Source: Escallonia rubra
Taxonomy: Eukaryota; Streptophyta; Magnoliopsida; Escalloniales; Escalloniaceae
Length of the DNA: 64,000 bases
Assembly (NCBI GenBank): GCA_033065855.1
Contig: JAVXUO010002581.1
Span: 620,001 to 684,000, forward strand
Direction of reading: 5' to 3'
Shown one piece after another: positions 24,931-64,000 of the stretch (within the stretch, counting starts at the first letter, position 1; every line of letters starts with the position of its first letter). The translations under genes were made by a program, and so were the position numbers. The notes beneath the pieces are model-generated. The model did no database searches, was not told where the DNA came from, and saw only the letters and a list, made by a program, of their open reading frames with translations.

Positions 24931-24931
24931 A

Positions 24932-25732: not shown

Positions 25733-25771
<39 letters not shown>

Positions 25772-28914: not shown

Positions 28915-28921
28915 AAGTACA

Positions 28922-38910: not shown

Positions 38911-38926
38911 CTGGTGTTTTGTTCTT

Positions 38927-40071: not shown

Positions 40072-40087
40072 CTGGTGTTTTGTTCTT

Positions 40088-41279: not shown

Positions 41280-41768
41280 TTCAAGAGTGACTTTAATACA
41301 TGTGTGAAGAAATCGTTGACGGTAGACGTGTTTGAGGAGAGGTGGGCCAAGTTAATGGATGACTACTATTTGCACAGTCATGAATGGTTGCAAGCGTTGT
41401 ATGAGATCAAGACACAGTCAGTCGGTGCCTACACCAAAAAGTTTTTTGCAGCCGGAATGACTACGACCTCGAGAAACGAAGGTATGAATGCATTCTTTCA
41501 TGGGTATGTAGGCCATTCTTCAAGTATAAAAGAATTCGTACTAGAGATGCATAAAGCCTTTAACAAGCAATTTTTCCTTGAGAGAAAAGCTGACGCGGCT
41601 ACAGTTTACAGAGAAAGAGCCATAGTAGTTTTTTCACCTTTTGAGGCTCATGCGGCTCAAGTCTATACCACGGAAATGTTTAGACAGTTTTAAGAGGAAC
41701 TACTAAAGTCGAATCAATATAGCATGACAAAGTTGCACGAGCTATACACCAAAGATCTCAAGGTTTAG
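41280..41768 (+). pseudogene. FAR1/FHY3-related (Mutator-transposase-derived) protein fragment
   Basis: The frame reads CVKKSLTVDVFEERWAKLMD, HEWLQALYE, KKFFAAGMTTTSRNEGMNAF, FFHGYVGHSSSIKEFVLEMH, APPROXIMATELY matching the order of the FAR1-family MULE-transposase domain: C-x-(8)-F-E-x2-W, W-L-x-L-Y, F-x-AGM-(S/T)-T-T-x-R-(S/N)-E-x-M-N and F-x2-Y. An early stop (41691-41693) interrupts the FRQF-EELL stretch, which continues after it. There is no upstream FAR1 DNA-binding domain and no downstream SWIM zinc finger. FAR1-family proteins are transcription factors derived from Mutator transposases, so this could be a gene fragment or a transposase remnant. Confidence 0.75.
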
Positions 41769-42164
41769 GCTTTGACAAATGTGACGAATTTTGCCAATCC
41801 GTGCTCTTCGTCGGCTTCAAAGAACAGAAGATGAAAGAAAGAGTTGGGAAAGATGATGGAGAGTGAAAGAGAGGGCTCTGTCCAAAAAGAGTTGGGGAGA
41901 ACGAATTATAAAAAGAGAAAAGTTAGGGAGAGAGAAGAAAGAAGACTCGTGAGAGAGAGAAAAATAAGACCCGTGAGACATGATATGACAATGCAAAAAA
42001 GGCTGGTTGAAAAAAATTTGGGAGTGCAAATTTTGGGCAATATGAAGGACGACAAGACAAGACAAGGCTTGGGGATTGGGGTGGGGCCACGACAGGACAA
42101 TACTTGGGGTGGGGCCACAACAGGACAAAAATTGGGAGTGCAAATCCTGTGTCACGAAACAATG

Positions 42165-42613
42165 CCAACCGTTACACTTAGTAGCGGTTGGGGAATGAGT
42201 GGTGGGGGCCCATGTCCTTATGTCACGTGTCACGAAACAATGCAAAAAAAAAAAAGGAATGATGCCAACCGCTACACTTAGTAGCGGTTGGGCTCGTGGT
42301 GGGGCCATTGTTTTGGTGTCACGAAAGAAGGCTTAAAAAATTGCAATGATGCCAACCGCTACAAAGTGTAGCGGTTGGGTGTGCTCCCAATTGCTTCACT
42401 TTGTAGTGATTGGGAGGAAATTAGTGAGCCCTCAACCGCTAGTCTTTCTAGCGGTTGGGGTTTTTTCAGCTTTCCGGGGCATTTTTGTCCATTTTTGCAA
42501 CCGCTTGAAATAGTGGTGGTTGCAACTTTTAAAAAAAAAAAAATCTGGGCCATCCACGAGTACACTTGGACGGCTAGATTTATGGTGGAGAAATAGCTAT
42601 TTCTCCACTAGTG
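42165..42613. repeat. Hairpin array plus CACTA-like terminus
   Basis: Four or five inverted modules of the form CAACCGCTAC-n-GTAGCGGTTGG occur at about 42166-42192, 42264-42290, 42353-42379, 42389-42414 (diverged) and 42439-42460. They are followed by a palindrome GGAGAAATAGCTATTTCTCC (42582-42601) that runs into ACTAGTG. Read on the minus strand from 42613 the end is CACTAGTGGAGAAATAGC. CACTA transposons have CACTA termini with inverted subterminal motifs, which fits. A partner terminus was not found to the left, so this is a truncated or decayed end. Confidence 0.5.
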
Positions 42614-44960
42614 GGTGTGGATCGGCTCCCTATACACACACACACACACACTACTACCTATATATATATAAGAAAACCCTTGAAGTCGAAGAGAAAAACC
42701 AAGCTAAGAAATAAAAATTAAAATTTGGGAACGAAATAAAAAAGAAGTAAAGCTTCAAAATCAGTTAAGAAAAAAAAAACAAATACCGAAAAAATGAAAT
42801 ACACGGCGCCAAACATAACAGCCAAAAATCGGTTCAGAGACTCTTCCCTTTTGCTCTTTGGTTCATACATAGATGTAGACTCTTTATTTTCCTCTTCGAT
42901 TCATCCATTTCTCTCATCTTTCTTCATTCATTTCTCTTTACAAATGTCTGCATGCGTGCCTTTCCAATTCCAGATCATTAATCCTCAAAAATAACTTCTT
43001 TGTAGAGCATATATTTGTCTTCCCAAATCCTTCGTTCTTTCGCCTTCTTCCAATGTGCCGTTGGCATTCTTTAACTATAATTTATGGGTTCCTACTGCAA
43101 GCACAACCAGGTTGGGTCTGTCCTTCTCCAATTTACATGTTTTTCAATCGTTTCCAACTCTATCTAATTTTTTTTCCGGTAAATTGCGTGAATGCTTTAG
43201 GAAGCTCATCAATTGGTATACATAAATATGAAATAAATAAATAAGTATACACTTCGTGCAAAGGAATTTTCCATGGACGACTAGGCTATTTGTATAGCCC
43301 TCACCTAGGCACGCAAGCATGCTTTGACAACCATGAAGCAAACAATGTATTTAAAAGGGGCACAAGAAAGCAACTTTATTTGGCAAAGTTAGAGACTAGG
43401 CCATATGGCATGAAATATTACTGGACAAACCACGAGTTAGATACTAGACATCAAGAACTTTATCTGCTCTATAAAGTGCATACTTTCATTTGTGGTGGTC
43501 TCTAGAATGAAGAGTCTGAATAGAATAGCCAACCCTGCATAAGAAAGGTTCATCAAAAGTAAATCGGGGCTTACAACATAACTTCCGATAAAAAAATAAA
43601 GTGCAGCCACTTGATGTGTCTGGTTGCGGGGTCTGCTACTATATGTGGCAAATAACTAATTTCTGAAATCTCTTCACATGGAGGAAGAAAGAGTAGAGAA
43701 ACCTTATGGAATACTACGTATATCGTTAAACGTAAAAGAAATTAGATTGTTAACCCTTAGAATGCACCACATATATACTGGAAAATCTTCCCGATCACTA
43801 TACCTCAGTTCAGCTCTTAGTATGTATGTTTAAACCTAATTACATCGTGCATGTTCAGTTGTAAAATGCTTGATTTATAATGACATGCTTGGAATTCCAG
43901 GTAGAACCATCAATTGAACAATCTGCGTTGATAACCACTCTGAGTTTTCTCTCCATTGTACTACTTCAGTTAAATGGGAACTGAGGAGATTGAATATTAG
44001 GTGAATTTAGCTCTGTTGTGACAAACTTTTCGCATCAATCATGTGAAAAGAAGCTCAATATTGAAAAAACGACTAACTATAGGTCATGATCTCAATATCT
44101 CATTGATCTGGACTAAGATGTATCAATAATGAGACAGGGCTGCACTATAGCTCATTAAGAAATGGACACCGCGATTCTAGATGTTTAAAAGTCACTTAAA
44201 TTTTGTCTTTAATATCATTCACATGACTGAATGTGACTCCTTTGATCATAGAAAAAGTATGGCCTAAAATTGTGAACACTCACTTTTGGAACTCAAGAAC
44301 GGGGAAAAACGAAAAAGAACAATTGTTCTCATGAGGTGATGCTATGCGAAGGCATGGAGAACAATGAAAATAACAACATAAAATAGCGAGGGAAGGAAAG
44401 GGTGCAAGGAAAACAAGCAGTAGATAATAGCATTATTGAGGAACATACTTGCATAAGCCACATTGCATCTTTATCAACTTTTGACATTGCTTCATATACA
44501 ACATAACCAAGGGATGAAATATAAGTTGGATCACTTGTCGGAGGGGAGTTCTCATTAAATGTATCACTGTGTAAAACAAGGCAATCCAACCATTAATGCC
44601 AGCTCTTAGTCTTGACTGCAGGACTGTGATGATCATTCTTTTATTTTTAACTTTATATCAAAAGAAGAAACCAAAGCTAGGTGTTTAAACTTTTGTAAGT
44701 TTATTATCTTGTCAAAAGGAAGTAGCTTTAGATCTATAGAAGAGGAACTTTGCCTAACATTTAAGTGAGCAAACAGGGGATTAGATTGGGAGCCCGGATC
44801 TCAGTTGAGTTGAGAAAGGCTAATTCGCGTGGTTTAGTGGCATAACTTTTCTTAGGATGTGCCTTTTAACAGTAGGGTATGATGATGAGGTATGAGAGTC
44901 GTATACTTTAAAAGGTATTTTAAATTAATGTGTTCCATTTACCCGGTAACTTTTTTGGCT
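42614..44960. other. Intergenic, no gene recognised
   Basis: A (CA)n microsatellite lies at about 42635-42650 and a short (TA)n at 42660-42671. The remaining roughly 2.3 kb is AT-rich with no supported exon or element ends. Confidence 0.5.
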
Positions 44961-44971
44961 TCAACAGTGCC

Positions 44972-45402
44972 ATGTCTAACCAAGGATCTAACGGAGGAGA
45001 CTCCACTCAACCAACCATGGACGTGGCTGGGTATTCCTAATTGCAAAATGTATCATCATCAACAGGAATGTCTCGAAAGCCTGATCCAAGTTTGTCTATA
45101 CCTCCATACTCTAAGACGTATTGGGCTCCTACATTTGGTCGTGGTGGCTGTAGACTAATTAGGCTTAGGAAGTCAAAAAAGACAAAATCCGTGAAGAGAA
45201 TGATTTCTTACGGAAGGAATTGCACAAGGCGTGGAATGATCTTGAAGAAGTACGAGTAAATGCTGAAAAAGAACTTGAAGAAGTTCAAGTACGTGCTGAA
45301 AATGAAATCGGGGAATGTGATCGCATTCTCAAGGAAGTGATTGCTGGAATTGAGGCGGTAAAAGAGCATTGCGAGGAAAACTTAAAGGGACAACAATCTT
45401 AA
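44972..45402 (+). pseudogene. Unrecognised small protein with C-terminal coiled coil (broken)
   Basis: After an acceptor-like TTCAACAG the frame opens MSNQGSNGGDSTQPTMDVAG and hits a TAA at 45038-45040. The same frame continues past it: GMSRKPDPSLSIPPYSKTYW, PTFGRGG. A frameshift follows at about 45180, then a charged heptad-rich tail with near-repeats: DLEEVRVNAEKELEEVQVRA, then ENEIGECDRILKEVIAGIEA, ending KGQQS-stop. The tail is a predicted coiled coil. I do not recognise the family; a transposon-associated accessory protein is one possibility. The stop and the shift argue for a pseudogene. Confidence 0.4.
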
Positions 45403-46002
45403 ACCAACTTCATGTGTCCTGCGAATATATGAACGCCTAGAATCAAGCTGGAGCCTACCTTAAGCGAACCATCTTATGTATCAAGGAGCCCTTTGTACAT
45501 CTTAAGCAACTATTGAGTTTTAAGCTTGGTATGAAATAAAGAACTTCCTTGTATCTACATGGATCTTGTTTGTTTGAATTATTTGTATTTACATACTTAT
45601 ACGTATCAAACAGTGGCTAATTTTTATATAGTTTCAAACATCAGAAAATGTTTAGGCAGGTGAAGGAGTAAAGAAAAAAAATGAGTAAACAGCGTATTAC
45701 ACTCGCAGGAAGGGAAGAATAACAAGCTAAAAGCTTTTACCCTTAATGTAGTTTTACACTTCATATAGGTGGTTGAATTTGTATAGTATGTGTGCCCATT
45801 TTGACATGATCATAGGCCATAAAAGACAAGATCTCTATGAAGCTTCAACTATCTCGTAGCTGGATTTTTTCTTATTGATTCGACAATTTTGATTTCAATC
45901 GCATACGCCAACTTATTGAAAGTCAATATTCACCCGCTTAATTTTCTATCAACTGAAATGACAAACAAATCAATGAGCGCCCAATAATTCACCAATAATC
46001 AC

Positions 46003-46098
46003 ATCGAGATATGGTGAAAACATGATTAGTGTGGAAGTTCATGATCTATTTTTTGTATACATCGGGGGACAAGGTTAACCTTTTCCTCAATTAGGCAT
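46003..46098 (+). repeat. Dispersed direct repeat, copy 1
   Basis: Shares CATCGAGATATGGTGAAAA, GGAAGTTCATG, TTTGTATACA, GACAAGGTT and TTTTCCTCAATTAGGC in the same order with 47552-47637. Confidence 0.75.
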
Positions 46099-47551
46099 TT
46101 TGCTTGACTCATCCCCAGACAATCAAGCTACGATTAAATTGAGGAAAGAACGCATGGATCATTGTTTTCTGGTGCATCATGTGCAAGAACGTTATTGCGA
46201 CTGTAGACCATTTCCAGTGCGTGCTAGATGGTAAGAAGTCAGCTTCTTTGCAATATCCCTATGTTCGAATGACAGTATACCACACATTTCTAAAATCTTA
46301 ACCGGTGTAATCTTGGACCGCTACTCTTCAATAGATCCTTCTTCTTGAATGAGAATGCAACTGGCATCTGGGTTGTACATTCTAATCTGCATGTTGTTTT
46401 TGTAATTGAGCTTGCCATCTTTAATCATATCGTCTTGGATACAACATACCTTAGACAAACCTTTCTAAGCATAGACGCTTAAGCTCTTCTTTTAATTGAT
46501 AATAATTTTGTTATGCAGGCTGCAAACAGTGTTTTTCCAACTGGAGCTGAAGTGTGACAAGGTAAACTTTTCTTACTTGCCTGCCTATACGACTTTCAGA
46601 CTAAAGTAATTCATAATTTAACTGTATTAAATACGTTCTTTATCACACTCTATTTACTTAACGTGTGCATTCATCTAATTTAGTGAGCATGCAACCTCAT
46701 TGTATTAAGATATGATTGATGGTATTTGTGCTGGCAAATAACTCAATTCTCAACATTGCATCAGTTTCAATGTGCACTTTGTTCTACGTATAAAGGTTTC
46801 ATCTTGTATGAAATATATCTAACCATCCGTAGCAATTCCCCCTCATCGTGTCCTTAATTGGTATCAGCCACATCATCTCATTTACATCCTATGGTATGCT
46901 TGTGCAGTAGTCATCCGCCTTAGGATTTGCATTTAAGTTGTCATGTGAACATGTTACTTTTTAATGATATTTTGTTTCAAACCATAATGCCCTGCCTCAT
47001 AATAGTTCCATTGAAAATCCCTTTGAACTCAGTAGATTAGGAAGGGTAGCAGTCCGTCGCTTAGTTGTATGAAGCGATGGTTTGAGTAGGAGCAGGTGTG
47101 AGGTTCCATAGCGGGAGCTTGAGTAGTATGGTTTGTTTTTGGGTAGGAGCGTGCAAGTGCAACATTTGGGAGTGAGTGAGAACTATTATTTATTTTCTCG
47201 AAAGATGCAACTACATTCCTATCCTCACCATGTACCAATAATAGCCAAGTTTCGGAACTGGCCTGGCTACCTACAGTCCCTTTGACTCAATCTGAGCAGC
47301 AATTACAATTGGTGAGCAGGCTAACTTGCTTTAGGTATGATCCTAGGGCTCTATGCACTTTATTACTCATCAAGTGCAAAGTGAAGTCATGCAGTTAATT
47401 GCCTATCTTCCAGTACCAAAATGAGGAGAACTGATGAATTGTGGAAAGACATCTTGTAGAAAAGGAAAATTTTGGTGGATTCAGAAAAGTTATGCTCACC
47501 AACTTGAGATTTGTAAGATTACAGTAACGGACATATTATCCAACAACAAGA

Positions 47552-47637
47552 TCAAGATATGATGAAAATGGGAAGTTCATGGTGTAATCTTTGTATACAC
47601 TAGGAGACAAGGTTGACATTTTCCTCAATTAGGCGCA
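47552..47637 (+). repeat. Dispersed direct repeat, copy 2
   Basis: Second copy of the 46003-46098 block, in the same orientation about 1.55 kb away. The flanks do not align, so a short-range duplication or two members of a small repeat family are both possible. Confidence 0.75.
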
Positions 47638-50600
47638 AGAGTTCTTGATTTACTTAATAGTTGTGCTAGATGTTTAAGACTTGAAAATATTAGGAGATTC
47701 CTGGTGTAGATTCTGTTTCATTTCAACAGCTTTAGTGCAATTTGTGATGACACTATTACTAAGGTATGTCCAAGGTCCTTTTCCTGTGAATATAAATATG
47801 TTTGCTTGTATGGACTAAATGGTTTGTTCTACAAAGCTTTTGCTTCAAAAATGTGTTATTGCTTATGTAGCCTGTTAGTACTGCTTTGTAGAATTAGATT
47901 ACTGCACATAAATGTGTGTGCTTTGCACCTGTATCATTAGGTATCTATGCCTAGGGCGATTAGGTAGGAATCATTACAGTCCTGATATACTTTTTTCGTC
48001 ACCCTTAGTAATAACATAGCATCCATTTCCAAAACCTTCGCCCTAGCTGAAAAGGGTTGGCCCAAATAAAGTTTTACTCAGAAAGAAACAAAGATCTAAA
48101 ATCTAAAGACTCAAGGCATAAATTAACAATGTATCCTCCTGATTTCAGCATTGAAGCATAAAATAAACCAGCTGAAGAAGATGACAGGTAAGTAAGGATT
48201 GAACTACCATTGGCTTAACTTTTAGATAGCATCGGCAACTTGCGTCAATTAACCATAGAAAAAAAACATCCAAACAATTTTAGATTGTCTCCAAAGGAAC
48301 CAAACACGGGCTAGCGCAAGTAGATATAGCCAGCTTAGTCTCGAGCAAAGAAGGGAATATATTGAGAGAACAAACTCAATGAGAAGGGAAACAATTCAAC
48401 TTCAGGAAGACAAGAGTGATGGAAGCAATTCTGTTGTTAACAAAAAAAGGAAGATTGATTGGCTTCTAAGAGCTCAAGCAACGACACTTGATGAACAAGG
48501 TTTGTCGTTTCTTGGCGCACCTTCTAAAAAAAATTATAACTATTTTCAAAAAACAAAAAACTAATTGTGAAATTCGAATAGCAGAGGAGACCAATATCTG
48601 TGAAGAATATGGAGTACTAGAGCTGGAAAATATTGACGACTGTGTACATTATGGTGCTAAGCGGTTCCAATATGAACCGCCAACATTTTGATGCCAGAGG
48701 GGACAAGTCAAACTAGCGCCAACAGATATACCAGTTGAGTTCAAAGCATTGTTTAATTCTGAAACTAAAGAAGGAATAGAATTTTTTAGGAACATCCGAG
48801 CATACAACAGTTTATTCAGTTTCACATCATCCGGGGTGAATATCGACGAGGAACTTGCATCATCAAATAAGGGGATATACATATTTAGAGCACAAGGCCA
48901 AATATACGATAATCTGCCAGCTTTGGTTCCTACAGAAAATAGGCCCTCTTACTTCCAGCTGTATTTCTACGATACTGCTAATGAACTGCAAAATAGAATG
49001 AAAATATTCCAAAATGCAGACTTGAGCGAAGATATAGTCAAAAAACTAATGGAGATTCAACGAGGTAACCCATATTCATAATTCCTTTGGAGACTCAAAG
49101 ACTTCCCATCACTGAATGATTTTCAGATACATATTAAGAAGGATGTCAAATTAGACCAACGGGTTTACAATGCTCGGTCAGCTGACCAAGTTGCCACTAT
49201 ATGGATAGAGGGCAACGATCCTCATGGACCTCTAGAGCGTGATATCATTGTCCATGCACATTCTGGCAGCAGCCATAGAGTTAGGCATTACTATGGTTGC
49301 TATGATCCTTTGCAATATCCCTTATTGTTTCCAAAGGGTGAAGTTGGATGGCATCAAAACATTAAAAAGTGAGGGATAGAGGAATTTGCTAATGCACAAG
49401 GACAATTACAAGATTCAGGAGAGACGGATTATCAATCTTTAGGGCCCTTTTCAACTGTTGAAGAATTTTTTTCTGGAGAGAAAACAGGTAAATTTTCTAG
49501 GGCTTTAGTTTTTTGCGTAAACTTAAAATTTAAAGTACATGCTAAAATATTTCCTTACTTTTCAAAAATTTTAAGAGTGGCTGAGGAAAAATCTGGGTAT
49601 GTATCTTGCCGCGAGTACTACTGTCATAAACTTCAGATTAGGAAAATACAAGCCCCACACATTCTATTAGCAGGCCGTCTATTACAACAGTATGCAGTAG
49701 ACATGTATATTAAGCTGGAGACAACTGGGTTGGACTATTATCGTACAAGGCAATCAGATCTTCGTAGTGAGTTATATCAAGGGATAGTCGACAGTGTAAC
49801 TGCAGGAGAAAGTAGGGGAAGTGAGGTTGGAAAAAGAGTTGTGTTACCCGCTTCATTTGTTGGAGGCCCAAGAGACATGTGTCGTAGATATTTAGATGCA
49901 ATGGCATTGGTTCAGCGCTTTGGGAAACCCTATTTTTTTCTCACGATGACTTGCAACCCTGACTGGTAAGAAATTACTAATGAGTTGCTCCCCGGACAAA
50001 AACCTCAGGATAGACCTAACTTAGCTGCACGTGTTTTTAGGGCAAAACTTCAGGACCTCAAAGACTAACTTTTTAAGAAAGAAGTATTTGGGAAAGTGGC
50101 AGCAAATGTTCACGTTATTGAATTTAAAAAAAGAGGCCTGCCACACGCTCATTTGATTATTATACTCAAGCCAGACTATAAAATAACAACTCCATATCAA
50201 TATGACAAGTTTGTTTGTGCAGAAATCCCGAATCCAGAGAGCCAACCTAAACTTTATTCTTTAGTTGTTAAGCATATGATGCATGGTCCCTGCGGCAATC
50301 AAAATAAGAAAAACCCTTGCATGGTTAACAGAGAATGCAAGAACCATTACCCTCGTGGGTTTTGCTCCAAAACTACCCAAGGCAAAGATGCTTACCCAAT
50401 CTACAGGAGAAGGGATAACAAACGGGAGGTTTTAGTTTGAAAGAAGCTTCTGAACAACCAATGGGTGATTCTGTACAACCCATACCTACTCATGAGATAC
50501 AATTGCCACATTAATGTAGAGATATGCTCAGGGTTGAAGGCAGTAAGTACCTTTATAAATATATTTAAAAGGGCCACGATAAAGTAGCGGTATTATCGAA

Positions 50601-52699
50601 TTTGATGACAAAAGGGAGTGTAATTGATGAAATCCAAAGATTTTAAGATGCTCGATGGGTGTCAGCCCCAGAAGCCATAAGCCATGTGGAGGACATTTGA
50701 GTTTAATTTGAATGAGATGGACCCAGCAGTGTTTAACTTGCAGTTGCACTTACCTAACAAACAGTGCTTGACCTATTGGAAAAAATTAAAATTTGAGAAA
50801 CGTTGCTCTTTGGGATCATGCGACCAAAACAATGCTTACAGAATTCTTTAGGATGAATGCAAATGATGCAAAAGCCAAAACGGAAAAATACCTCTACAGT
50901 GAATTTCCTGAGAACTATGTTTGGGACAGAAATGGGAAGTGTTGGAGAGAAAGAAAGAAAAGAAGTGTTATTGGCCGAATCAATGGTGCTAACCCAATAG
51001 AAGGCAAAAGATATTTCCTACGGTTACTGCTTAATCATGTTAGAGGACCGGAATCATTTAAGAATCTACTAACAGTTAATGGAGTTCAATATTCAAGGAA
51101 GCTGCTAAAAGAAAAGGACTTCTAGAATCAGACCAGAGCATAGTGGATTGTCTCAATGAAATAGCAACATTCCAAATGCCAAAATCCCTTCGAAGATTGT
51201 TTGTGACGGTCTTGATATACTGTGAACCAGCAGATGTTAGGAAACTATGGGATTTAAACTTTGAAGTAATGTCAGATGATTTTAGGAAAGCAAAACCAAA
51301 TTCTCCTCATTATCATCTGTCATCAACACTACGAAGCATCAGTTTTTTCTTAGAGAGTATGGGTAAGAAAAATTCAGATTTTGATTTACCTCCTTTAATT
51401 CCAGATGACGGCAAAAACGAAATACACTACCCAATAAAAAATAAGAGATAAACTGAATGTTGAAATCCCTCCTGAAGACATCGCTGCAGTTTTAAGTTTA
51501 AATGAAGAACAACATGCAGCCTACAAAAAGATATTGCATCGAGTACATTCGAATTCAAGTGGGGTATTTTTTATTGACGGTCCTGGGGGAACATGAAAGA
51601 CATTTGTTTATAGAACTTTGTTGGCACATATTAGGGCAAAAGGAGGGATAGCTTTAGCAACAACAACTTCAGGAGTAGCTGCTGCAATAATGCATGGTGA
51701 CCGTACAACACATTCTAGGTTCAAAATCTCAATTATTGTTACAGAAAGCAGCTTACGTAACATACCAAAGTAGAGAGCAACCAGTGACCTTTTGCGTAAA
51801 GCTAAGCTAATCATTTGGGATGAGATGCCCATGGTAAAACATTTTGCAATTGAAACTGTCGATAGGAGCTTGAGGGATGTAATGTATTGTGACGAACCTT
51901 TTGAAGGGAAGGTTATAGTTTTTGGTGGTGACTTCCGACAGGTGCTACCTGTTGTGCACTGGGCAACAAGAGCTGAGACTGTTGCTGCAAGCCTTGTAAA
52001 ATCACCGGTTTGGGACTCTATGGAGAAAATACAGCTCACAAAAAAACATGAGGGCAAGATCAGATCCTAATTTTAGCAGTTTCCTGCTTAAAGTATGGGT
52101 GGAAATGAGCCAACAATTGAAGATGACTTGATATCTCTTTCAGATAAGATGATAATAAAAAAAATCGAGATGGTAAATCTCCAGAAGAAGTATTGATTGA
52201 AGAAGTCTTTCCTTTCATACAACATAATGCTGGTTATATTGACTACATGAGTGAGCGTGCAATCTTAGCAACAACAAATGAAAATGTAGACATGCTAAAT
52301 GAGAGATTAATCAAAACTTTCCCTGGAGAAGAAAGAATCTTTCACAGCTATGATGAAGCAGTGGATGACACTAACCATTATTACATAGAAGAGTTTCTAA
52401 ATACTTTGATGCCAAATGGCCTTCCGCCTCATAGACTAATCCTAAAAGAAAATTGCCCAATCATGTTGTTAAGAAATCTTGACCCTTCAAATGGCTTATG
52501 CAATGGAACAAGGATGGTCTGTAGATCATTAGGCGAGTTCGTTATAGCTGCAGAAATAACTGTTGGCCAACATGCTGGCAATCAAGTGTTAATACCAAGG
52601 ATACCACTTTTTCTGGCTGAAAACGAAGGGTATCCTTTTAAGTTCAGACGGACACAATTTCCAATTCGACTCTGCTATGCAATGACAATCAACAAAGCC

Positions 52700-53395
52700 C
52701 AGGGGCGGAGCCAGAAAATTTAGTCGAGGGGGGCCAAAAAAGCGTAAATTTTTTTGCTCATATTATATATTATAATTAGCGTCACTTCTTGAATATGTTG
52801 AATGCATAATAAATTATTCAATTGACTACTAATCATTTTAGATTACTATTTCTAGTGATTTATTTAACTTGGTAAGGTGAATTAACAACGAATTACTAAT
52901 CTTGCATGAATGAAGCTTAATAATTATAGTATAGCTGTATTATTAATATGATTATATGAGTACAATAGTGCATTAACAACGAATTACTAATCTTGCATGA
53001 ATGAAGCTTAACAATTATAGTATAGCTGTATTATTAATATGATTATATGAGTACAATAGTGCATGTATTAATTAATATTTTACAATAATTTAAAACCAAA
53101 AAAAAAGAACAAACCTTAATCATTCAAATTCTTCCGTAATATGAAAATTTAAAATTTGAAAGAATGAAGATGGAACAAACGAATGAGAAAGAAGAAGATT
53201 GACCGTCAATGGCACAAAGAGTTAGAAATACAATAAAAACGAAATCCTAATTATTTTACGATATAATGGTATTTTTATAAATATGTTAAATATGAATGTT
53301 ATTTATATAGTAAATTAAAAGATCTCAAATATTGGGTTGTGGGGGGGGGGGGGGGTGCCGTGGCCCCCCCCGGTCAGGCGGGAGTTCCGCCCCTG
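52700..53395. mobile_element. hAT-type MITE inserted in the Helitron helicase
   Basis: The ends CAGGGGCGGAGCCAG and (minus reading) CAGGGGCGGAACTCC are inverted. A perfect 8-bp target duplication ACAAAGCC flanks them (52692-52699 and 53396-53403). The AT-rich body has no transposase and carries a 91-bp tandem duplication and a G-homopolymer (about 53340-53355). The insertion splits the INKAQ motif of helicase motif VI; the helicase frame resumes after the right copy of the target site. Confidence 0.92.
52881..53062. repeat. 91-bp tandem duplication inside the hAT MITE
   Basis: 52881-52971 and 52972-53062 both run from ATTAACAACGAATTACTAAT to GAGTACAATAGTGC, nearly identical (one visible difference, TTAATAATT versus TTAACAATT). 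The low divergence points to a recent event. Confidence 0.92.
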
Positions 53396-55329
53396 ACAAA
53401 GCCCAAAGACAGACCATAAAACATGTTGGTGTCTACCTCCCAGAACATGTCTTCTCACATGGACAGCTTTATGTAGCCTTATCAAGAGGTACATCCATGC
53501 TGACAACCAAAGTTCTGATGAAGCAAGAAAAAAAGAAAAAAGCATGAAAGTTGTGCATGAAAAATGTGGTATACAAGGAAGTTTTCACGTCCCAGAGGTA
53601 AATTTATTTACGTTTTGTAAATTAGAATTACATTATATTTAAACTTATTTCCCAATCAGTTAAATATTGTAACTATGCCATTACTTTAAACTGTAATGCT
53701 ATTGTCTCATGCATTTATTTCAATTTAAGACAAAATCATTGAGATTTTCCTACTTATAGTGGCCTATGAGAGTATGCTGTTTATAGCATATTTGTTACCC
53801 TCGCCTAAATGCTCAAACAGTCATTGTTCACTGCATTGTTATAGGTAAAATCTAAAAATAAAATTCAAAGCTCATGAATTAATTTTGGTGTTGAATCCTC
53901 ACTTTTAGCTGTTCATATCTTACTGACTCCTTACTCAATTTGCATAATATAATTTGTGAAGAAATATATGCTTCTGCTTACTCATGTCATTCATATAACT
54001 AAAGAACATGTTTTCTTGATATGAACAACGAAGATGTCTACTGAGGAAGCAATGCAGTCACAAGAAATAGAAGAACCACAGCTAGAACACATCCAAATAA
54101 CATCTCTTCAAATAAATCAAAAGACTTGGACCATCAAAGTAGTGGTGCTGCGACTGGGTAGTCCAGAAAGATACAACAATGCAAGGGGCTCCAGATAAGT
54201 TTGGAAAATAATCATTGCTGATGAGGAGGTAAAAAGCTTTGACTAAGGTTTATGCCTAAAAAAAGGATACTCTATTACACTTTGTTTCTTAATACTTTAA
54301 GAACTGATGTATTTTCACTATCAACAAGCAAACAAAAAATTGTATTCAAGACACATGCACTAAAAAAACACATGAATTTACATACAGGGAACAAGAGTGC
54401 AAGCAGTCATGTTCAATGATGCCATCTCAAAGTTTCAGCCAATGCTTAAAAAAGGAACAACCTACTTGATATCGGACGGAACAGTTAAGCCAACGAACCA
54501 AAATTTCACAAATGTCAACAAGGAAATTGAGTTGTCACTTCCGATGATAGCCAACATCATTGAAGCCCCTGAAGAAATTCGCATGGATAATATCTCGAAG
54601 AACTTTCTATCGATCCGATAGGCAATACAAAAAGGCCCTACTACAACATTCTCAAGTAAGATGATAGGAAAAAAAAAAGGAAAATCAACTAGCACACATA
54701 TTATTGCATTTAGATTTTCATTTTATACCTGTTGTGCTCACTTTAATGTTAGCTTCGTTAAGTCCTCATTAGATTAGAGTTAAAACCTTGTAATTGAAGA
54801 CCACTAATGGTAAGAGTGATACCCCCTGTCAACTAAATGTTAAACATATTAATTGATTATAAATTAGTTCAACTAATTATTAAAAATCCTTATATAAATC
54901 ATTTAAGGTCAAGCAGAGGATCCAACAACCTTCCTAAGATAGACAAAGCTAGAGAAAAGAGGAGAAAAGGCCTTGAAGTTAGTTATACTGCAAAATCAGT
55001 AAAGTTCAATTTTAGGTTGCCCATGATTGATCAAATGATCAATTCTCCCTTATTGTTGATACAAACATTCTCATACTCAGCTGTAAGACTGTTTGAGGTT
55101 AATATTGGACCAATGTATGTTATGTTGCCATTGCAGTAGTTATATTCTGAGGTAGCCATTTGCTACTTTTGTAATAGATGGTAACTCTCTAGCCTAGCAA
55201 GTACTTGAGACTGTGATTGATAGTGCACCGCAAAAATGGATGATGACATATATATGAGTTCCACTTGGTAATTACACAACTACCAGTAGTTCCTTGTCAT
55301 ATGTTGACATACTCAATGTCTTAGGCTCC

Positions 55330-55615
55330 CAAGCCTTGCTGAAGTTAGCTAGAAGGTGACCTTCCTGCTACAAAACTGCTCCCATCCCTCTATCACTGAC
55401 ATCTATTTCTAATCCAAGTGGCAGGTGAAAATGAGGGATATCAAGAGTAGGAGTAGAGACCATAGCTTCCTTCAGAGAAGGCCTTAGAAACTTTAGGGTT
55501 CCATTGGAAACTATCTTTCTTGATATTTGTTGTCAATGGCTTCGAAATAAGGCCAAAGTGCTTGAGAAATCTCATGTGATAGCCTGTTTAGCCCAAAAAA
55601 ACCAGCTCTTTCAGC
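55330..55615 (-). pseudogene. Ty3/gypsy reverse transcriptase-RNase H remnant
   Basis: Minus-strand segments in two frames read RFLKHFGLISKPLTTNIKKD, FQWNPKVSKAF, then MVSTPTLDIPHFHLPLGLEI, DVSDRGMGAVL-stop-QEGHLLANFSKA. This matches the RT-to-RNase H junction of Ty3 elements: R-x-F-I-K-x-FGLI-x-(R/K)-PLT, F-x-W, TPVLALPDF, DAS-x2-G-x-GAVL-x-Q-x-G and FSK. A stop replaces a residue after GAVL. The remnant lies inside the interruption of the Helitron RPA gene. Confidence 0.75.
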
Positions 55616-57194
55616 ATCTATATCGCTGTCTATCTCAACAATGATCTTCAAATTCTTGTACCCATCCTCAGGAATCCATTTGACTTCATGTGCTACATCG
55701 ACAATAACATCATATCTAGATCACAAATTAATCAGCATAAATGATCCCCAGAAATCCAGTTATAGAGACTAGATCCAACTTTTTGTCCTTTTTTTTAAAA
55801 AAAAAAAAAAAGCAACAGCAAAAAGCAATGATATTCAATTTCACGGAAAAAGTACCCAGGTGTGCCTTGAAACTCTACTCTTTCTTTATATCTACACAAA
55901 TATAAGGCTTGAACACTAAATTCATTAAGGCTTGGAAACTACCTGATGTATTAGTGAGCCCTTAGGGCATTACCGAATGAATATTCGTACGACATAGCCA
56001 ATTAAGCTCCACTGAAGGACTTAGTGCAGGCTTTATATGTATATATGTTTGGTCATGTACCCAAAAATAAGCTGTGTATCAAAGAGGTTTGGGTATTCTG
56101 GTTGCTTTACTTCCGTAGTTGTTAATTCACTTGTGTTAAGAAAGAGTTGCAAAATGCTTTTTCAAGGTATACTTCTGCTACTTCATATATACGTAGAGTA
56201 AGTTGGGCAAGTAAAGTGTGTCTAACATAACTCTACTCTGAGTATAAGCCCTAGGCCCAGAAGATTATGATTGCTATGGTCAATCTATTCTGCTCCTACT
56301 TAGTCAACAATGGTCATTAAGTATAGTCATCAAAAGCACTAACCTGGAAAAAGCGAGCCTTATAAGGCCTTTGGGTTCGGCGCCTAAGCCCCTCAAAGTG
56401 CACTTACTTTTGAAGGGGCTTCACCAAGCCCTAGGCAAGGGCTTGCATGTCGGCTTTGATAGGCTTTTTGCCCTAGGCGCACTTCTAACAAATATGAGCG
56501 GGTGTGAGCTGCAATTTCTGTCGTTAAAAAATCCATGGGTAAGAACAAAGACCTTATACTGGTTCTACGGTAGTAGTCCTTAAGTACTATTGGAGTGAGT
56601 TACGGAGAATGTTGTGGATTTTATCATGTAATTTGTTAAACATATTTCTTTCAGAAATTGCGTCAAGTGCTCCTTTCACCACTTTGTTAATTCAATGAAT
56701 ATCATGACTTCCAAATTGAGTCAAACAGAGCATGCTTACGTACTTATCATGTTCGCATATTAAGTCATCCATGACGTAGTTATATGTGTAATTGCATTGC
56801 ATCTAAACATCTTAAAACATCCTGCTGTACCAAACAAAAAGTCGTCAACAAAAGATACAATCACAACTAAACAAAGATCCAGTCATCCGCTTGAGTGAAA
56901 TAGTCGTAAATCATCATGGGCATGTCTTTGAACAAAAATATTTCATGTTCAGTACAGTTGTAAATAAGTCACTTCATTTGCGTCCTTCTCAAGGTTGTAA
57001 TTCAAGAAGCGCTTGTCTTTCACACTGTAATTTGTTAGATAAGCCATATGGAATATAGCAGCATCATGGACTACTCATAGTTTCTTTTCTTCGCTTTCTC
57101 CATTTTGCTTGTCCTTTGGAATTTTCGCCCTCACCTTTGGTTGTCTTGCCATTAATTCCGATCTTATTTGCTTCTGAAATAAAGACACATGAAC

Positions 57195-57626
57195 GTTAAG
57201 TTTTGCGACAAAGGGCTGCTACTGCTCATGAAACTCCTGCTACCAAACCTCTTTCTACCTCTCAGTTAGACGAGCTTAATGCCTTTGCCACTCAAAAGAA
57301 ATTCAGTACTGATGATGACACTGATCATGAGACAATTGCTGAGACTTCTGATCAAGTTGTTAGTGCTATAACCAAGAACACAACCAAGAAGTTAATAAAG
57401 TATAGGCCATTATGTGATTCTTGAACCCAAGCAATTGGGAATTAGGCTTCCTAGACTAGCTAAGAGGCAAGTTATGGAACAGTTCATGCACAACAATCTT
57501 CAACATACTCAAACTTGGCTATTTTGGCACAATGACCTTACTGTTAATTTATTCTCTAACTGTGACAAAGATATGTTAGTTTCTATTTCTTTTGCTGTTG
57601 TTTCTACTGTTCTACATGCATTCTAG
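57195..57626 (+). pseudogene. Unrecognised coding-like fragment
   Basis: Two consecutive short frames read LRQRAATAHETPATKPLSTS, QLDELNAFATQKKFSTDDDT and, after a stop at 57422, PKQLGIRLPRLAKRQVMEQF and THTWLFWHND-like text. Composition is protein-like (acidic Asp/Thr patch, then a basic patch), but I recognise no domain. A single-base change could join the frames, so it is probably a broken gene or gag fragment. Confidence 0.3.
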
Positions 57627-59190
57627 GAGTAGTAGGTAATGCAAAACCACTCTCAAGCATAAGAAGAAGCAGAGATGGAACTGTGCATAAAAGGCGAGAA
57701 ATCATCACGATGGACAACGGGTATTTCACTAAAACTAAGGCCATCTGATGCTAAAAAAAAAAGGAAGATAACTAATGTTGTTTACGTAATGCAGGTCAAC
57801 TCTCACAACTATAACGCTTTGGGGTGACTTGGCAACCAATGAAGGCAAAAATTTAGAGATAGAAGTCGAAGAACAACCAATTATTGCAATAGATAATGTC
57901 AAAGTGATAGAATATCAAGGTAAACTACCTTCAAATTTAAGTGTTTTACTCAGAATTTCAAAAGCATTATAAAAGGAAGAACATAACACTTTTCAAACAT
58001 ATTGTAGGTGAACCTCAACTGTCACTATCATTCATCAGCACGCTACAAATAAACCCAAAAATCGAGGAAGCAACTTTGATCAGAAACTGGTAATACACAT
58101 TCTTTTTAAACATGATCTAAACCGAACGAAACATTATGTATGCAGAATTCTTGCACTTTCTAACTTCAAACACAAGTTAAAAAAGGAAAGCCCATGTCTA
58201 TCACCAATCGGAAAAATGAGAGATGCAACAGTTGTAACCCTTGAAGAAATCCTGACAAACGCACCAAAAATAACTCAGGTGAGATAAATACACACACACA
58301 CACACACAGAGATTGAGAACACAACACTTACTAATAATGCCTTTACACATAAATTATATTGTTCTTTTAAAGCGAATCTACTCAGTATTGAGAACAAAGA
58401 AGAACCGTGGTACCAAGAATGCAAAAGATGCAACAAAAAAGTTATTATTACAGCGAGAGGACCAACTTGTAAGGACGAAAAGTGTGAACCTCCAATAACT
58501 TATAAACCAAGGTAAACTACGGAAATCAAAAAGACGTGTGTATTTATTTGAACAAAAAAATTGTTGATTCAATAATAGTGATTAAAAAAATAAGTACATG
58601 TTGAAACTGGCTGTAATTGGAGACATACAACAGGCATTCATAACATTGTTCGATGCAGCCGAAACTTTAATTGGATGTCCAGTCTCAAGACTGATACAGT
58701 CAAAGCAGGTATGCTACTTTCATCACTGTACGCATTGTAAAAAGTTAAACAACGACAACATTTAACATTAAAGAGTTACATACAGAACGGAAAAGATCTT
58801 GAAGAAATAGAAGGCAAAGAATTCATCTTCATCGTTAGGATGGACAAAAAGACTGAAGATGACAGAATCCGAGCTAAGCTGGTAGCACAAGAAGTTCGAC
58901 AGTACAACCAAGCAGAACTACATGACGAAAATAATCGAAGGACATATGAAGATCATATTCACTCTAACCATGCAAAAAAGAAGCTCAAATTTGATGAAGG
59001 CTAAAGAGAGATTATATAGTAATGTTAAGTAATTTATATAAAACTAAAACTGCATCTTCTCATTCGGCATTTTCATGTTAAAATATGAAGTTTAGATATT
59101 TGGAATTGTTTCTTTGACTTTCTTGATTTGCTCTTCTTCTCGCCAACAACTTAATGCATTATGATCTTGAAAACTAGTTTCTGCCACATC

Positions 59191-59218
59191 CACGTGCAAC
59201 GCACGTGCTCCATACTAG
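59191..59218 (+). mobile_element. 3' terminus of the large RepHel/RPA Helitron
   Basis: A 7-bp perfect hairpin, CACGTGC-aac-GCACGTG (59191-59207), is followed by CTCCATA and CTAG (59215-59218) with T as the next base. This is the canonical Helitron 3' end. Beyond it the sequence switches to TTTCATAAATG, which matches 40797-40807, confirming a boundary. The 5' end (TC after A) was not located. Confidence 0.88.
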
Positions 59219-59282
59219 TTTCATAAATGTACATAATAAAGAATTAATATAAATTTATCTCTTAACGAGTTGTTTGTGAATC

Positions 59283-59329
<47 letters not shown>

Positions 59330-60601
59330 GCCGAAGCTGAGAGAATATTGTCCAGTCATCGCTTACTTGAATATTCTCTCAGTTCGCCATATGGACTTTC
59401 CTATTTTGAATTTTTAAAATATTTTAAATTTACTTACCTTTGTAATAATGATTTGGATTCATTCTCTCTCTCTCTCTCTCTCTCTCATTTGGATTCCTTC
59501 TTTCCATTTGAAATTCAACCAATTATATAGATTTGAAATTTCTCTATCTTCTTTTTCAACACACTCCACTCAAAAATTTTATTTATAACTTTATAATTCC
59601 ATTCATCCCTAGATTTTGACAAAAGTAATTCTCTATATATTACTTTTTAATCTTAATTTTTTTTATTTAGGAAAACATAATATTCTCCGTTAGTTTTTCT
59701 CTTAGACTACCCTAATCTCTTTCCTTTTGTTTAATTGCAAGTTTTATATATAATTTATGCTCTCATTTTTTTTCAATAATTTATTATGTACTCTTACTCT
59801 TTTCTTGGTGATCTTGAGTAATACAACCTCAACACACGGGTTATTATTGTTAGTATTATCACTGCAATTGCTATTAATTAGGAGAAACTATATCTATTAT
59901 TTCATACACTATTTTTCATCTTCATTTGTCACTAAAAACAAATAATTATTATTCAAGTTCATTTCTAACGATAAAAATTGGTATGAGAACTCCTTTAAAA
60001 AGGTAAAAATAAAATTTTGATTATCTTATTGTCACTGCCAATTTTGTAATTATTATTAAGCATACAAATATCTAATCTCTCAATAAGTAATTTGATAATA
60101 GTTGTTCCCGTGTGCAATGCACGGGATCAAAACTAGTATATTCATGAACAATTTAACATGTTTAGGTTCTGCTCGTTCAATAAGTGAGCTCTGAAAAAAA
60201 ATACACGTTCGGTTAATTTACCATACAAATGAACATGTACGAACTTTTAATTAATGAATAAGGTGTTGTTCAAGAATAGGGGTTCATCTAGGGCCACAGC
60301 CTTAGCGATTTTACAATACTCGTTCCTATAGGCTAGCATGGGGCCAAAAAGCCGTTTGTTCCCATACTAGGAAAAAATAACTTATTCAATTGAATTAACT
60401 TATCTAAGATTATCTCCCCTTCTTAACAATATCATTAGCAAATTCTTACAGATCAAGAATAACGTCTTTAAATTCAAGAATAAGTTTTTTGTGTGTGCGT
60501 GTGTTTTGTATGTGTATATGTGTGGTACGTACCGGTACCGTATTGATAACTATGCTGCAAACCTTCAAATCCCATCACCGTACAATGACCGCTCCAATTT
60601 T
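59219..60601 (+). repeat. Segment duplicated from or with 40.8-41.25 kb, split by Helitrons
   Basis: 59219-59280, 60137-60340 and about 60553-60600 align in order with 40797-41245. The intervening 59281-60136 is Helitron. 60341-60552 replaces a different sequence found at 41064-41201, so one copy has a replacement there. Confidence 0.8.
59281..60136 (+). mobile_element. Non-autonomous Helitron, 856 bp
   Basis: It begins TCTGTGTGTG and ends with hairpin CCCGTG-tgcaatg-CACGGG (60107-60125), ATCAAAA and CTAG (60133-60136). It sits between A (59280) and T (60137). The insertion-free sequence GTTTGTGAATATATTCATGA at 40848 kb-side proves both ends. A minus-strand relative lies at 24932-25775. It contains (TA)n (59291-59324) and (TC)n (59463-59486) repeats and no Rep or helicase. 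Confidence 0.93.
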
Positions 60602-60937
60602 TCTCAGGTGTAGAAGCATGATCGTATGCTTTCTCAAATTTTTACAGGTAACAAGTATCTATCTGAACCGAAAATCCAAATTTACGGGGAAAAGATGAAA
60701 CAAGGTATTTTAAATCCATTCTCATCTCATAGAATACAAAAACCCAAGCGCGAGGCAAATACAAAGCAGAGAGCAGCAACTGCGTTGCCGGTGCCTCCGG
60801 GCGGCAGGAAGTCCGTGTTGTTCCAGCAAACAGTCGCTATCCATGCACTGAACTGGAGCAAATGGACAAGAATCAAGATATGCGTAGCAGGTACCCCGCC
60901 GGCTCCACCTTTCTGTTCAATATTTGAAGCCAATTAG
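60602..60937 (+). pseudogene. Unrecognised coding fragment with splice-like borders
   Basis: A frame of about 104 codons reads YLSEPKIQIYGEKMKQGILN, PFSSHRIQKPKREANTKQRA, PVPPGGRKSVLFQQTVAIHA, LNWSKWTRIKI and ends CSIFEAN-stop. It is preceded by an acceptor-like TTTTTACAG at 60640-60648. The composition (basic, Pro/Gly loop, hydrophobic tail) looks like real coding sequence, but I do not recognise it. No promoter or further exons are visible. It could be a 3' gene fragment brought with the duplicated flank. Confidence 0.35.
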
Positions 60938-61486
60938 CGGAAAGAAAGCCAAAAATATTGGAACAGTTGAAAGCCCCTCTCACGGCCACACAGGCATGTG
61001 GCTCACACGCGCCATATATAGGCTTCTTTTCTGGTAGAAACTTTCCTGTTCTGTACATACCACCAGAGCATGGCGAATGGTCAATTTCCACGTATTTGAA
61101 CATAGAAAAAGTTTTTATTAATGAATAATTGCAAAACGAAGCTCGAATTATGCTTCATTTGGCATTGTGTATTAATGATCTTTATAATAGTGTTGTATTT
61201 GTGTCTCTTACTTTTTTTTACTTGCGTTGGACAAAAGTGATTTTAACCTTGCATCGTATTATTAAATAAGAAAGCAAATAGGAAATGATATGATGTTAAA
61301 AAGAACGGAACAATACAATAAGGTATTGTTTTAGGCTTTTCATTAGACAAAGAATGTACTTGTTTTAACGGCTAGTTTTAATGTCAGATCTTGTATAATT
61401 TTTACTAGAATTTTAAAAACAGATAGAATCATTCAAAAACAAACATTGCGTTGACAAAAAAATTGAACTAATTTTGTAATAGGGCT
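60938..61486. other. Intergenic, no gene recognised
   Basis: AT-rich sequence between the unrecognised fragment and the SINE, with no supported feature. Confidence 0.5.
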
Positions 61487-61499
61487 AACCATTTGAATA

Positions 61500-61759
61500 A
61501 TTATTTTTTTTGTGCAAAAAAGGCTGGACCGTAAGGCTCTAATCCAACCGGCAGGGAGTATTGCGCATCGGGGACCTACAAGGCCGCCGCATACATCTGA
61601 GCCCCCGATTCCCGCACCTATGTCGGGGCCGAAGGGCACAAGGACCCGTGTGTGGAGCACAAGCAGGGCAAAGACGTAAGTTTGCCACCAACAAGTACAG
61701 CGGGCAGGATTCGAACCCAGGTGAAAAATCTGGATTGAGATTCTGGGGACCGCTGAACC
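61500..61759 (-). mobile_element. tRNA-derived SINE
   Basis: On the minus strand the head contains an A box TGGTTCAGCGG (61751-61761 side) and, about 40 bp on, a B box GGTTCGAATCC (61708-61718), the internal RNA polymerase III promoter. The body runs left and ends in an A-tail (poly-T at 61502-61511 on the plus strand). A 13-bp direct repeat, AACCATTTGAATA, flanks it (61487-61499 and 61760-61772) as target duplication. At 260 bp it has typical plant SINE size. Confidence 0.88.
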
Positions 61760-61772
61760 AACCATTTGAATA

Positions 61773-62552
61773 TGCGCCTATCAAAACGCGCCGGAGAAAC
61801 CTCACCTAACTAATAACATCGGCTATAGACCGGGACCTACCCTATCCGATCTTAATTGTTGGAATTAGTGGTCACAGCACTTAACTAGACTTTGTACAAG
61901 AATGAAAGTCGTATTGTACGAGCTACTCTCAAAGCCGTCTTTCTCGTATGAAAGTGAAGTTTTAAGCGTGTTAGATCCACTGTCGTTGGAAACAAGATTT
62001 CTTGATTTGCTTCTTGTATCATCGCGATCCTATTTTTCGCGCCGAAATTCGTTGCCCATGACTTGGTCAAGTTGATTCGAGATCTCGCTATCAATCTCTT
62101 GGCCTTAAAAAAATAATCTTCCTCGAGTAAAAGCTTTACGCCGATTTGTTCAAAAAATACCTTTTGTCAATGCATAAGAAGAAGAGAGAAAAAAAAATAA
62201 AAAATAAAGGAAAACTACGAAGACCAAACACAACCGTTGACGCTCCAAATAACGCGCGTCAGAACCAGCAGGTCGTTGTCCCATAATAGCAAACGTTGCC
62301 AAATTGCCAAATCAAAGTATCCATAATTACTCTCTCTCTCTCTCTCTTCAAAGTCCAAAATGATTCTTCTATTAGCCGTTGAAGATGGTCAGTTTTTCTT
62401 CCAATACATTTCCAAACGCCTTCCCCCACAATTTCCCTTCCTAAATTAAAAACCCTAATCAACACCACCATTGACCCATGATCCCCTGTTCCAATCGATC
62501 CAATCCATGCTAATTCTCCCCACCTTCCGATCAATCACACACACAACCCGCC
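61773..62552. other. Upstream region of the choline-transporter-like gene
   Basis: No gene is recognised. The last 250 bp should contain the promoter and leader, with a (CT)n tract at about 62329-62349 and AAATTAAAAACCCTAATC just upstream of the start codon, as often seen in plant leaders. Confidence 0.45.
62329..62349 (+). promoter_or_regulatory. (CT)n pyrimidine patch in the leader or promoter of the transporter gene
   Basis: A run of about ten CT dinucleotides lies 200 bp upstream of the ATG on the coding strand. CT-rich patches are common near plant transcription starts; the assignment is by position only. Confidence 0.35.
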
Positions 62553-63957
62553 ATGAGCGTGTCTCAGAGCCCCTCTTCTTCCTCCGAGGATTCCGGCCCC
62601 GTCGCCACCGCCCAACAGGTGAAGAATCTAGTCTGTTTTACTGCTGTGATCACGTCAATTCAAGTCCATTTATATGCGTAACATACATGACACCTGCAAT
62701 TTTACACAAGCACAGACACACAGAACATGCTCCCTCCGTTTCGCAACTCTTAGAATAGAATTTGAACAGGTGAACGCTGCCGTTGATTTCGCTCATTGGT
62801 TTTGTCCTATTTTAACTGGTCAAGCAATACTTCTCCTAGTTTATATGTTCGGATATCCTAGGCAAACCTCATGGAACGGAGAGAGTACATGCTTGCACTG
62901 TGTTTAATTACAAAGAAAGTGTTGGCTTTACTTTAAATTAATCTATGTTACTGCTCACTACTATTGGTAATTAATCAATTTCGTCGAAATTATGCTTAAT
63001 TGGACGTATATACACGTGCAATTATAGAACTTACTAATATGATTGCTTAATTTTGTAAACTTTTAAGTAGGGAATAACAAATCTGTTGCCAAGTGTTTGA
63101 TAAATTACTTAAGGTGGCTTTCCAAAACGATGTCTTTTTGATTGAGCTATCAACTCTGATTTTGCCCATTCATTACCATAACTACGGAATCTGTCACGCA
63201 CATGCACAAACAATGTATATGGTATTCTTTCTTTTCCAACTTATAGGCCCCCTTGACTTCTTACCAAATTCTTAGGCAAGATTTAACACCTGAACAATGA
63301 TTAAATTTAAAAATTGACAAAGCATTATTTGACCAGTAAATAAGAAAAGAGGAGAGATGTCTAGTCTAGGTTGCTTGAATTCAAACCTAGAAATCTGCTA
63401 TAATGTCAAGGCGACTATAGTTTCGGAGTGGAGGGATATTCTAGTACTTTTCTCTATCTAATTGGCTTGTGTATTGAATTGTAGAGTGTCGAGCGAAGTG
63501 GTAGAAGTGGTGACGGCATTATTTCGATGTCTCCAGGAGTGGCTCCGGTGACTTCGCGCCATTGGCGAGATGTGTTCTGGCTAGGGATCTTTGTGATGCA
63601 TCTAATTTTGTTAGGTCTTGTTCTTGGAGTACTTGGGCTTAATAGGTTTAGGAAGCAGGATAGGCTAAATATAGATAAGTATACAGCTGGGTTTCTCGAG
63701 AATCAAGCAGGTTTAACGGAGGATTACTGGCCATTATATGCTGTTGCCGGTGGAGTTGGGACAGTCATTGGATGGACTTGGTTGCTGTTGCTTGGTTCGC
63801 GTGCTACTCAGATGATGAAGGTGTCGGTGCACATCTTGACTACTTATCTTGCTGTGATTAGTGTTTTGTGTTTTTGGGGTGAGCAAGTCTTCTGGGGTGT
63901 AGCTTTCGCCATTGGTGCTGGGTTGCAGTTTTTGTATGTCATTTCAGTCATAGACAG
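62553..63957 (+). CDS. Choline-transporter-like (CTL/PNS1 family) membrane protein, first two exons (partial)
   Basis: Exon 1 (62553-62618) encodes a Ser-rich cytosolic start, MSVSQSPSSSSEDSGP, and ends at CAG|GTGAAG. Exon 2 (63485-63957) follows an AATTGTAG acceptor in phase and ends at ACAG|GTAAAA in phase 2, so the gene continues off the right edge. Exon 2 encodes HWRDVFWLGIFVMHLILLGL, the conserved entry into the first membrane span. It then has a loop (NRFRKQDRLNIDKYTAGFLE) and three more hydrophobic spans (AVAGGVGTVIGWTWLLLLGS, ILTTYLAVISVLCFWG, QVFWGVAFAIGAGLQFLYVI). It stops at SVIDR, which in this family precedes the central transport core. The order matches plant choline-transporter-like proteins, which are related to yeast PNS1. 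About 180 of an expected 450-500 residues are in view. Choline transport is inferred from family only. Confidence 0.85.
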
Positions 63958-64000
63958 GTAAAATATTTCCTTTTAATACTTGAAGTTGAGTTATCCTTTT

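Follow-up and report, generated by a model that had tools for sequence, protein, structure and literature searches.

Plant Helitrons with a homolog of replication protein A (RPA), termed PHRPA, have been described (Roffler et al. 2015; PMC4683698). In the accessible part of that paper, an adjacent RepHel gene is reported for nine of the 21 PHRPA fragments extracted from rice (length 8,064-15,513 bp), and for the Mothra mother element a re-annotated PHRPA of eight exons is given. The RPA of plant Helitrons is described there as old, monophyletic and resident, outside the core RPA clade. For Helraiser, a bat Helitron, the accessible text reports that residues H593, H595, Y727, Y731, K1068 and R1457 were mutated, each mutation resulting in a loss, and that cleavage in vitro was unaffected by Y727F alone and affected by Y731F (PMC4778049). 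Here we describe a Helitron remnant in which RepHel is joined by an RPA70-like gene. It lies in a 64,000-nucleotide stretch of Escallonia rubra (contig JAVXUO010002581.1, positions 620,001 to 684,000), called the window below and numbered from its first base.

Along the forward strand of 48300-59218, a decayed HUH nuclease (Rep) is followed by a PIF1-type helicase, a multi-exon RPA70-like gene with DNA-binding domains (DBD) A, B and C, and a 3' end formed by a hairpin and CTAG. We read this stretch, at least 10.9 kb long, as the remains of a plant Helitron, now dead, that carried RepHel and, downstream of it, an RPA70-like gene, at a probability of about 0.92. The reading is supported: tests of domain content, order, strand and 3' end are all consistent with it. 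An earlier note, made from the letters alone, had claimed the same order of blocks and a spliced RPA part ending 214 bp before the 3' terminus. Both claims held up, the former through matches to Pfam families, Helraiser and RPA70 on the forward strand, the latter through a stop codon at 59002-59004 and the GT-AG introns that we draw. The profile check of translated segments suggested in the note was also run: the Rep and helicase segments match Helitron_like_N and PIF1, and the RPA model matches RPA70 and RPA families.

A decayed RepHel gene

The RepHel side of the element consists of the following features.

48300-48499, + strand: probable N-terminal RepHel coding remnant (LSLEQRREYIERTNSMRR...), then GT at 48500; within the open frame 48259-48564
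48602-49487, + strand: RepHel N-terminal region with three in-frame stops; shares its frame with the Rep domain and is placed by position and frame
49488-49577, + strand: possible short RepHel intron, GT-AG, putative, read from the sequence
49577-50437, + strand: Rep, the HUH nuclease domain, two in-frame stops; matches Helitron_like_N and Helraiser
50539-50694, + strand: two-tyrosine segment of Rep (KYLYKY), two in-frame stops, shifted frame; matches Helraiser 726-769 (E 3.2e-6)
50790-51451, + strand: RepHel region between Rep and helicase in two overlapping open reading frames (50790-51125 and 51080-51451); placed by position
51456-52699, + strand: PIF1-type helicase, motifs I to the start of VI, two stops and frame changes; matches PIF1, Pif1_2B_dom and Helraiser
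52700-53395, no strand assigned: 696-bp non-autonomous insert with an 8-bp target duplication (ACAAAGCC), recognized from its ends and flanks; splits helicase motif VI
53398-53541, + strand: helicase end (motif VI, ...HGQLYVALSRGTS); matches Helraiser 1428-1466 (E 8e-7)

The first profile scan used nine single-frame RepHel pieces with nothing joined. Four of them matched Helitron or PIF1 families: Helitron_like_N at 49373-49966 (E 5.9e-28) and 50069-50437 (E 8e-8), PIF1 at 51774-52067 (E 1.3e-28) and Pif1_2B_dom at 52148-52720 (E 1.4e-18); the other five gave no family. In later searches, pieces were read through with X at stops, and the helicase was joined from several frames. Rep read through (49577-50437) matches Helitron_like_N at E 4.5e-54 and residues 413-684 of Helraiser (PDB 7lcc) at E 7.3e-78, its sole PDB match at E 0.1, with the HUH motif RGLPHAH aligned. 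The joined helicase, which lies C-terminal to Rep, matches PIF1 (E 1.2e-62), Pif1_2B_dom (E 4.3e-18) and Helraiser 1030-1429 (E 6.5e-74). Pfam gave no match for the helicase end at 53398-53541 or for the pieces of 50790-51451, and no family above cut-off for the upstream pieces from 48300-49487. We assume that the product of 48300-48499 resembles the N-terminus of plant RepHel proteins. The putative intron is open and a multiple of three in length, and may instead be coding.

In the alignments, the window copy retains the RGLPHAH histidines, the two KYLYKY tyrosines, the lysine of Walker A and the LSR arginine of motif VI, at Helraiser positions given as functionally important in PMC4778049. 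The HUH nuclease keeps both of its catalytic tyrosines, in a protein that is broken. The pieces read through contain nine in-frame stops (three upstream, two in Rep, two in the tyrosine segment and two in the helicase), and the open RepHel frame of a working autonomous Helitron is absent. We regard the copy as dead because of these stops, the repeated frame changes and the insert that splits motif VI.

The insert begins with CAGGGGCGGAGCC and ends with GTTCCGCCCCTG, and ACAAAGCC stands on both flanks. Joining the two flanks restores a single helicase frame at the empty site. Elements of the hAT type typically have inverted ends and an 8-bp target duplication, and from its ends we take the insert to be of this class. 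It also holds a 91-bp tandem duplication (52877-53058).

The RPA70-like gene and the 3' terminus

Downstream of the helicase, and adjoining RepHel on the same strand as in PHRPA-type Helitrons, we drew an RPA70-like gene of nine exons.

54034-54228, + strand: exon 1, first half of DBD-A, one stop
54388-54655, + strand: exon 2, second half of DBD-A and linker, one stop
54656-57626, + strand: intron 2 (2971 bp, GT-AG), with an antisense retroelement fragment inside
57627-57720, + strand: exon 3, first half of DBD-B
57795-57919, + strand: exon 4, second half of DBD-B; REPA_OB_2 (below cut-off singly, above it when joined)
58008-58089, + strand: exon 5, end of DBD-B
58191-58278, + strand: exon 6, the weakest exon, acceptor chosen for frame; lies between blocks aligned to RPA70
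58393-58511, + strand: exon 7, four-cysteine ribbon of DBD-C, acceptor chosen for frame; Rep_fac-A_C (below cut-off singly, above it when joined)
58595-58708, + strand: exon 8, DBD-C, frame broken relative to exon 7
58786-59004, + strand: exon 9, end of DBD-C, stop codon 59002-59004

The model joins the nine exons over 54034-59001, with stops as X. It matches RPA70 in PDB entries 8rk2 (E 6e-29) and 1jmc (E 2e-20), and DBD-C alone in 1l1o (E 5.6e-6). At E 0.1 it hits eight distinct PDB sequences, all of them replication protein A or replication factor A save 4gnx, which is titled "putative uncharacterized protein." Four Pfam families score above cut-off: Rep_fac-A_C (2.9e-12), REPA_OB_2 (3.8e-11), tRNA_anti-codon (an OB fold; 2.3e-8) and DUF223 (2e-6). 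Taken singly, three of eight exon pieces match the same families, all below cut-off, and the other five give nothing or an unrelated weak match; the family call therefore depends on the joined pieces. Each of the eight introns is GT-AG, and the frame is kept at seven of the eight junctions. The exons contain two in-frame stops.

We had considered the gap of about 3 kb between exons 2 and 3 as an insertion within an exon. This was dropped, as a phase-matched GT-AG intron holding a retroelement fragment explains the gap better. The fragment, on the minus strand at 55371-55532, matches a retroelement RNase H family just below threshold (RT_RNaseH_2, E 1.8e-6; 28.4 bits, cut-off 29.8) and is presumably of Ty3/gypsy type. 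A minus-strand piece beside it had no match; among the other translated pieces of intron 2, three had no family at E 0.01 and three had none at E 1.

The 3' end of the element was located with the help of a repeat that flanks it.

59191-59218, + strand: 3' terminus, hairpin CACGTGC-AAC-GCACGTG, 7 nt, CTAG, then T; a repeat copy matches from 59219
40798-41061, + strand: second copy of the downstream flanking repeat; shows where the flank begins past CTAG, and the unoccupied site of a neighbouring Helitron

The hairpin (59191-59207) has a 7-bp stem and a 3-nt loop and is followed by CTAG at 59215-59218. The spacing fits the Helitron pattern of a hairpin roughly 10-12 nt before a CTRR end, the stem ending at 59207 and CTAG at 59218. 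Folded as single-stranded DNA, it was equalled by one of 200 shuffles. Stems of at least 7 bp before CTRR occur in the window as four matches at two sites, the terminal hairpin at 59191 and one on the other strand at 42424; in first-order simulations, nine of 30 sequences had at least one (mean 0.53 matches). Because the simulations yield such structures and the window holds a second site, the hairpin and CTAG alone are weak evidence, and we rejected them as sufficient by themselves. The match at 42424 comes from a repeat-rich stretch around AACCGCTA (42160-42470). The 3' end is well supported because a repeat copy begins to match exactly at the first base past CTAG: 59219-59281 is 92% identical to 40798-40860. 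On the 3' side of the element, T follows CTAG; in the flank copy the corresponding T is preceded by A.

The same repeat copy exposes a second, smaller Helitron 62 bp downstream of the first terminus. Its 856 bp (59281-60136) run from an initial TC to a terminal hairpin and CTAG, and none of 200 shuffles folded as well as this hairpin. The flank match breaks at 59281, resumes at 60137 (40860-41061, 89%) and reappears at 60557-60600 (41201-41244, 93%). In the unoccupied copy (40859|40860), the position taken by the second Helitron lies between A and T, and there is no target duplication. Judged from its sequence, 59281-60136 is a non-autonomous Helitron insertion, cleanly shown by the unoccupied copy. 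A relative on the minus strand (approximately 24931-25756) is 82% identical over 861 aligned positions and ends in CTAGT; its hairpin is weaker, with 28 of 200 shuffles folding equally well. Over the last 30 bases, the second Helitron is matched at 27 positions by this relative and at 22 by the large element.

What the locus may represent

When alive, the element would have encoded a RepHel protein, in which one chain combines an HUH nuclease and a PIF1-type helicase. By analogy with known Helitrons, RepHel would nick the element ends, unwind one strand and transfer this strand by a rolling-circle mechanism; the stop signal would be the hairpin close to the CTAG end. It is tempting to hypothesize that the spliced RPA70-like protein, encoded downstream on the same strand, coated the displaced single strand during transposition.

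Several observations weigh against reading the whole stretch as one Helitron. The junction between exons 7 and 8 is out of frame. The exon bounds were set by eye and took the frame into account, and introns 5 and 6 were given acceptors that preserve it, so the in-frame junctions are no independent test of the gene model. No other copy of the 3' end was found within the window (matches of at most 33 bases, E at least 0.08). A 5' TC terminus was not found with Helitron 5' patterns in the whole window or in 41501-48340, where the pattern used had no match; the 5' motif TCTACTA occurs at 4046, 19878 and 51065 (+) and 5717 (-), in no case immediately before the RepHel remnant. Finally, nothing in the window corresponds to the left side of the flank copy. 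For this, 40500-40806 was compared with the whole window (E up to 10), 38000-40797 with 40798-64000, and 40100-40500 with the whole window. All matches proved to be simple repeats, pieces no longer than 31 bases or a local palindrome, and none supplied a left flank. The flank copy is therefore at most a candidate for a full empty site of the large Helitron. Upstream of the RepHel remnant there is a direct repeat with units of roughly 100 bp that are 75% alike (45992-46096 and 47540-47634).

These gaps leave some room for a chance neighbourhood, in which a Helitron fragment lies beside a host RPA1-type pseudogene and a separate Helitron 3' end follows downstream. The intron of about 3 kb between exons 2 and 3 would suit such a patchwork, as would the lack of a 5' terminus and of a further copy of the 3' end within the window. 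Strand agreement and a size similar to the RepHel-PHRPA Helitrons described in the accessible part of PMC4683698 argue the other way, and the RPA stop lies 214 bp from a terminus that an independent repeat copy backs. We consider unrelated neighbours very unlikely. That this Helitron captured its RPA segment from a host gene in a single event seems barely credible to us, even though Helitrons are known to capture gene fragments (PMC4683698, accessible part) and the segment is spliced as in a host gene; the same text has plant Helitron RPA as an old, monophyletic resident apart from the core RPA clade. A further idea is that, once the transposase had decayed, the RPA gene persisted as a useful unit acting in trans, with non-autonomous relatives like the Helitron that lies 62 bp downstream as its beneficiaries. 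Damage to the nine RPA exons amounts to two stops and a broken junction, compared with nine stops, an insert and several frame changes for RepHel. Per kilobase, in a rough count without statistical test, the damage is not clearly different. The idea thus gains no clear support, and we rate it extremely unlikely. A dead Helitron with RepHel and its own RPA70-like gene remains our preferred reading.

The earlier note had counted this among complete copies, which goes beyond the evidence: no 5' terminus was found, and 48300 marks where recognizable coding begins. Its view of such copies as especially informative carries little weight, in that rice Helitrons with RepHel and RPA, putatively autonomous and transcribed, are already described in the accessible part of PMC4683698. 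The hAT-type insert at 52700-53395, the retroelement fragment in the intron of about 3 kb, the flank copy at 40798 and the second Helitron were absent from that note.

Other features of the window and comparison with known Helitrons

DNA searches within the window returned little for the large element: the RepHel side (48300-54700) had no match at E 0.001 in 1-48000 or 60200-64000, and the RPA side (57600-59218) matched only one 20-base simple repeat in 1-48000. Rfam gave no match at the gathering threshold for the whole window, and a plasmid collection none for 57000-59218, as expected for a plant. Elsewhere, RVT_1, zf-RVT and RVT_3 domains lie in two overlapping frames at 28912-31457, in what we take to be a non-LTR-like retroelement. 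Another zf-RVT fragment is found on the minus strand at 39254-40135, and 31812-33326 holds an open frame of 505 amino acids for an aspartyl protease (TAXi_N, TAXi_C, Asp).

The significance of the locus is mostly one of annotation: it is one more decayed Helitron with RepHel and RPA, whose 3' end is backed by an independent flank copy. Why plant Helitrons keep an RPA gene is a question that a dead copy cannot answer. The arrangement of RepHel with an adjacent RPA gene is already published for rice (PMC4683698, accessible part), and the window adds a further decayed example. Like the rice Mothra sister-family as described there, our element has RepHel with an adjoining RPA homolog, and its length of at least 10.9 kb falls inside the range of 8,064-15,513 bp. 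The hairpin of Mothra elements lies 13 bp ahead of a CTAG end, and a hairpin-CTAG end is present here too (PMC4683698, accessible part). Unlike the rice Helitrons with RepHel and PHRPA, to which we liken it by their published description only, this copy is dead, with stops, frame changes and an insert.

Helraiser, in the accessible text (PMC4778049) and in structure 7lcc, shares an alignable Rep and PIF1-type helicase, the same catalytic residues and a hairpin before the 3' end; it is active and reconstructed, whereas the window copy is decayed. In Feng8, an active wheat Helitron, RepHel likewise carries HUH and a tyrosine pair four residues apart (PMC13286980, accessible part). The word RPA does not occur in the accessible main text of the Helraiser paper (PMC4778049), nor do RPA and replication protein A in that of the Feng8 paper (PMC13286980). 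Because both elements are described there without the word RPA, the comparison suggests that RPA may not be needed by every Helitron.

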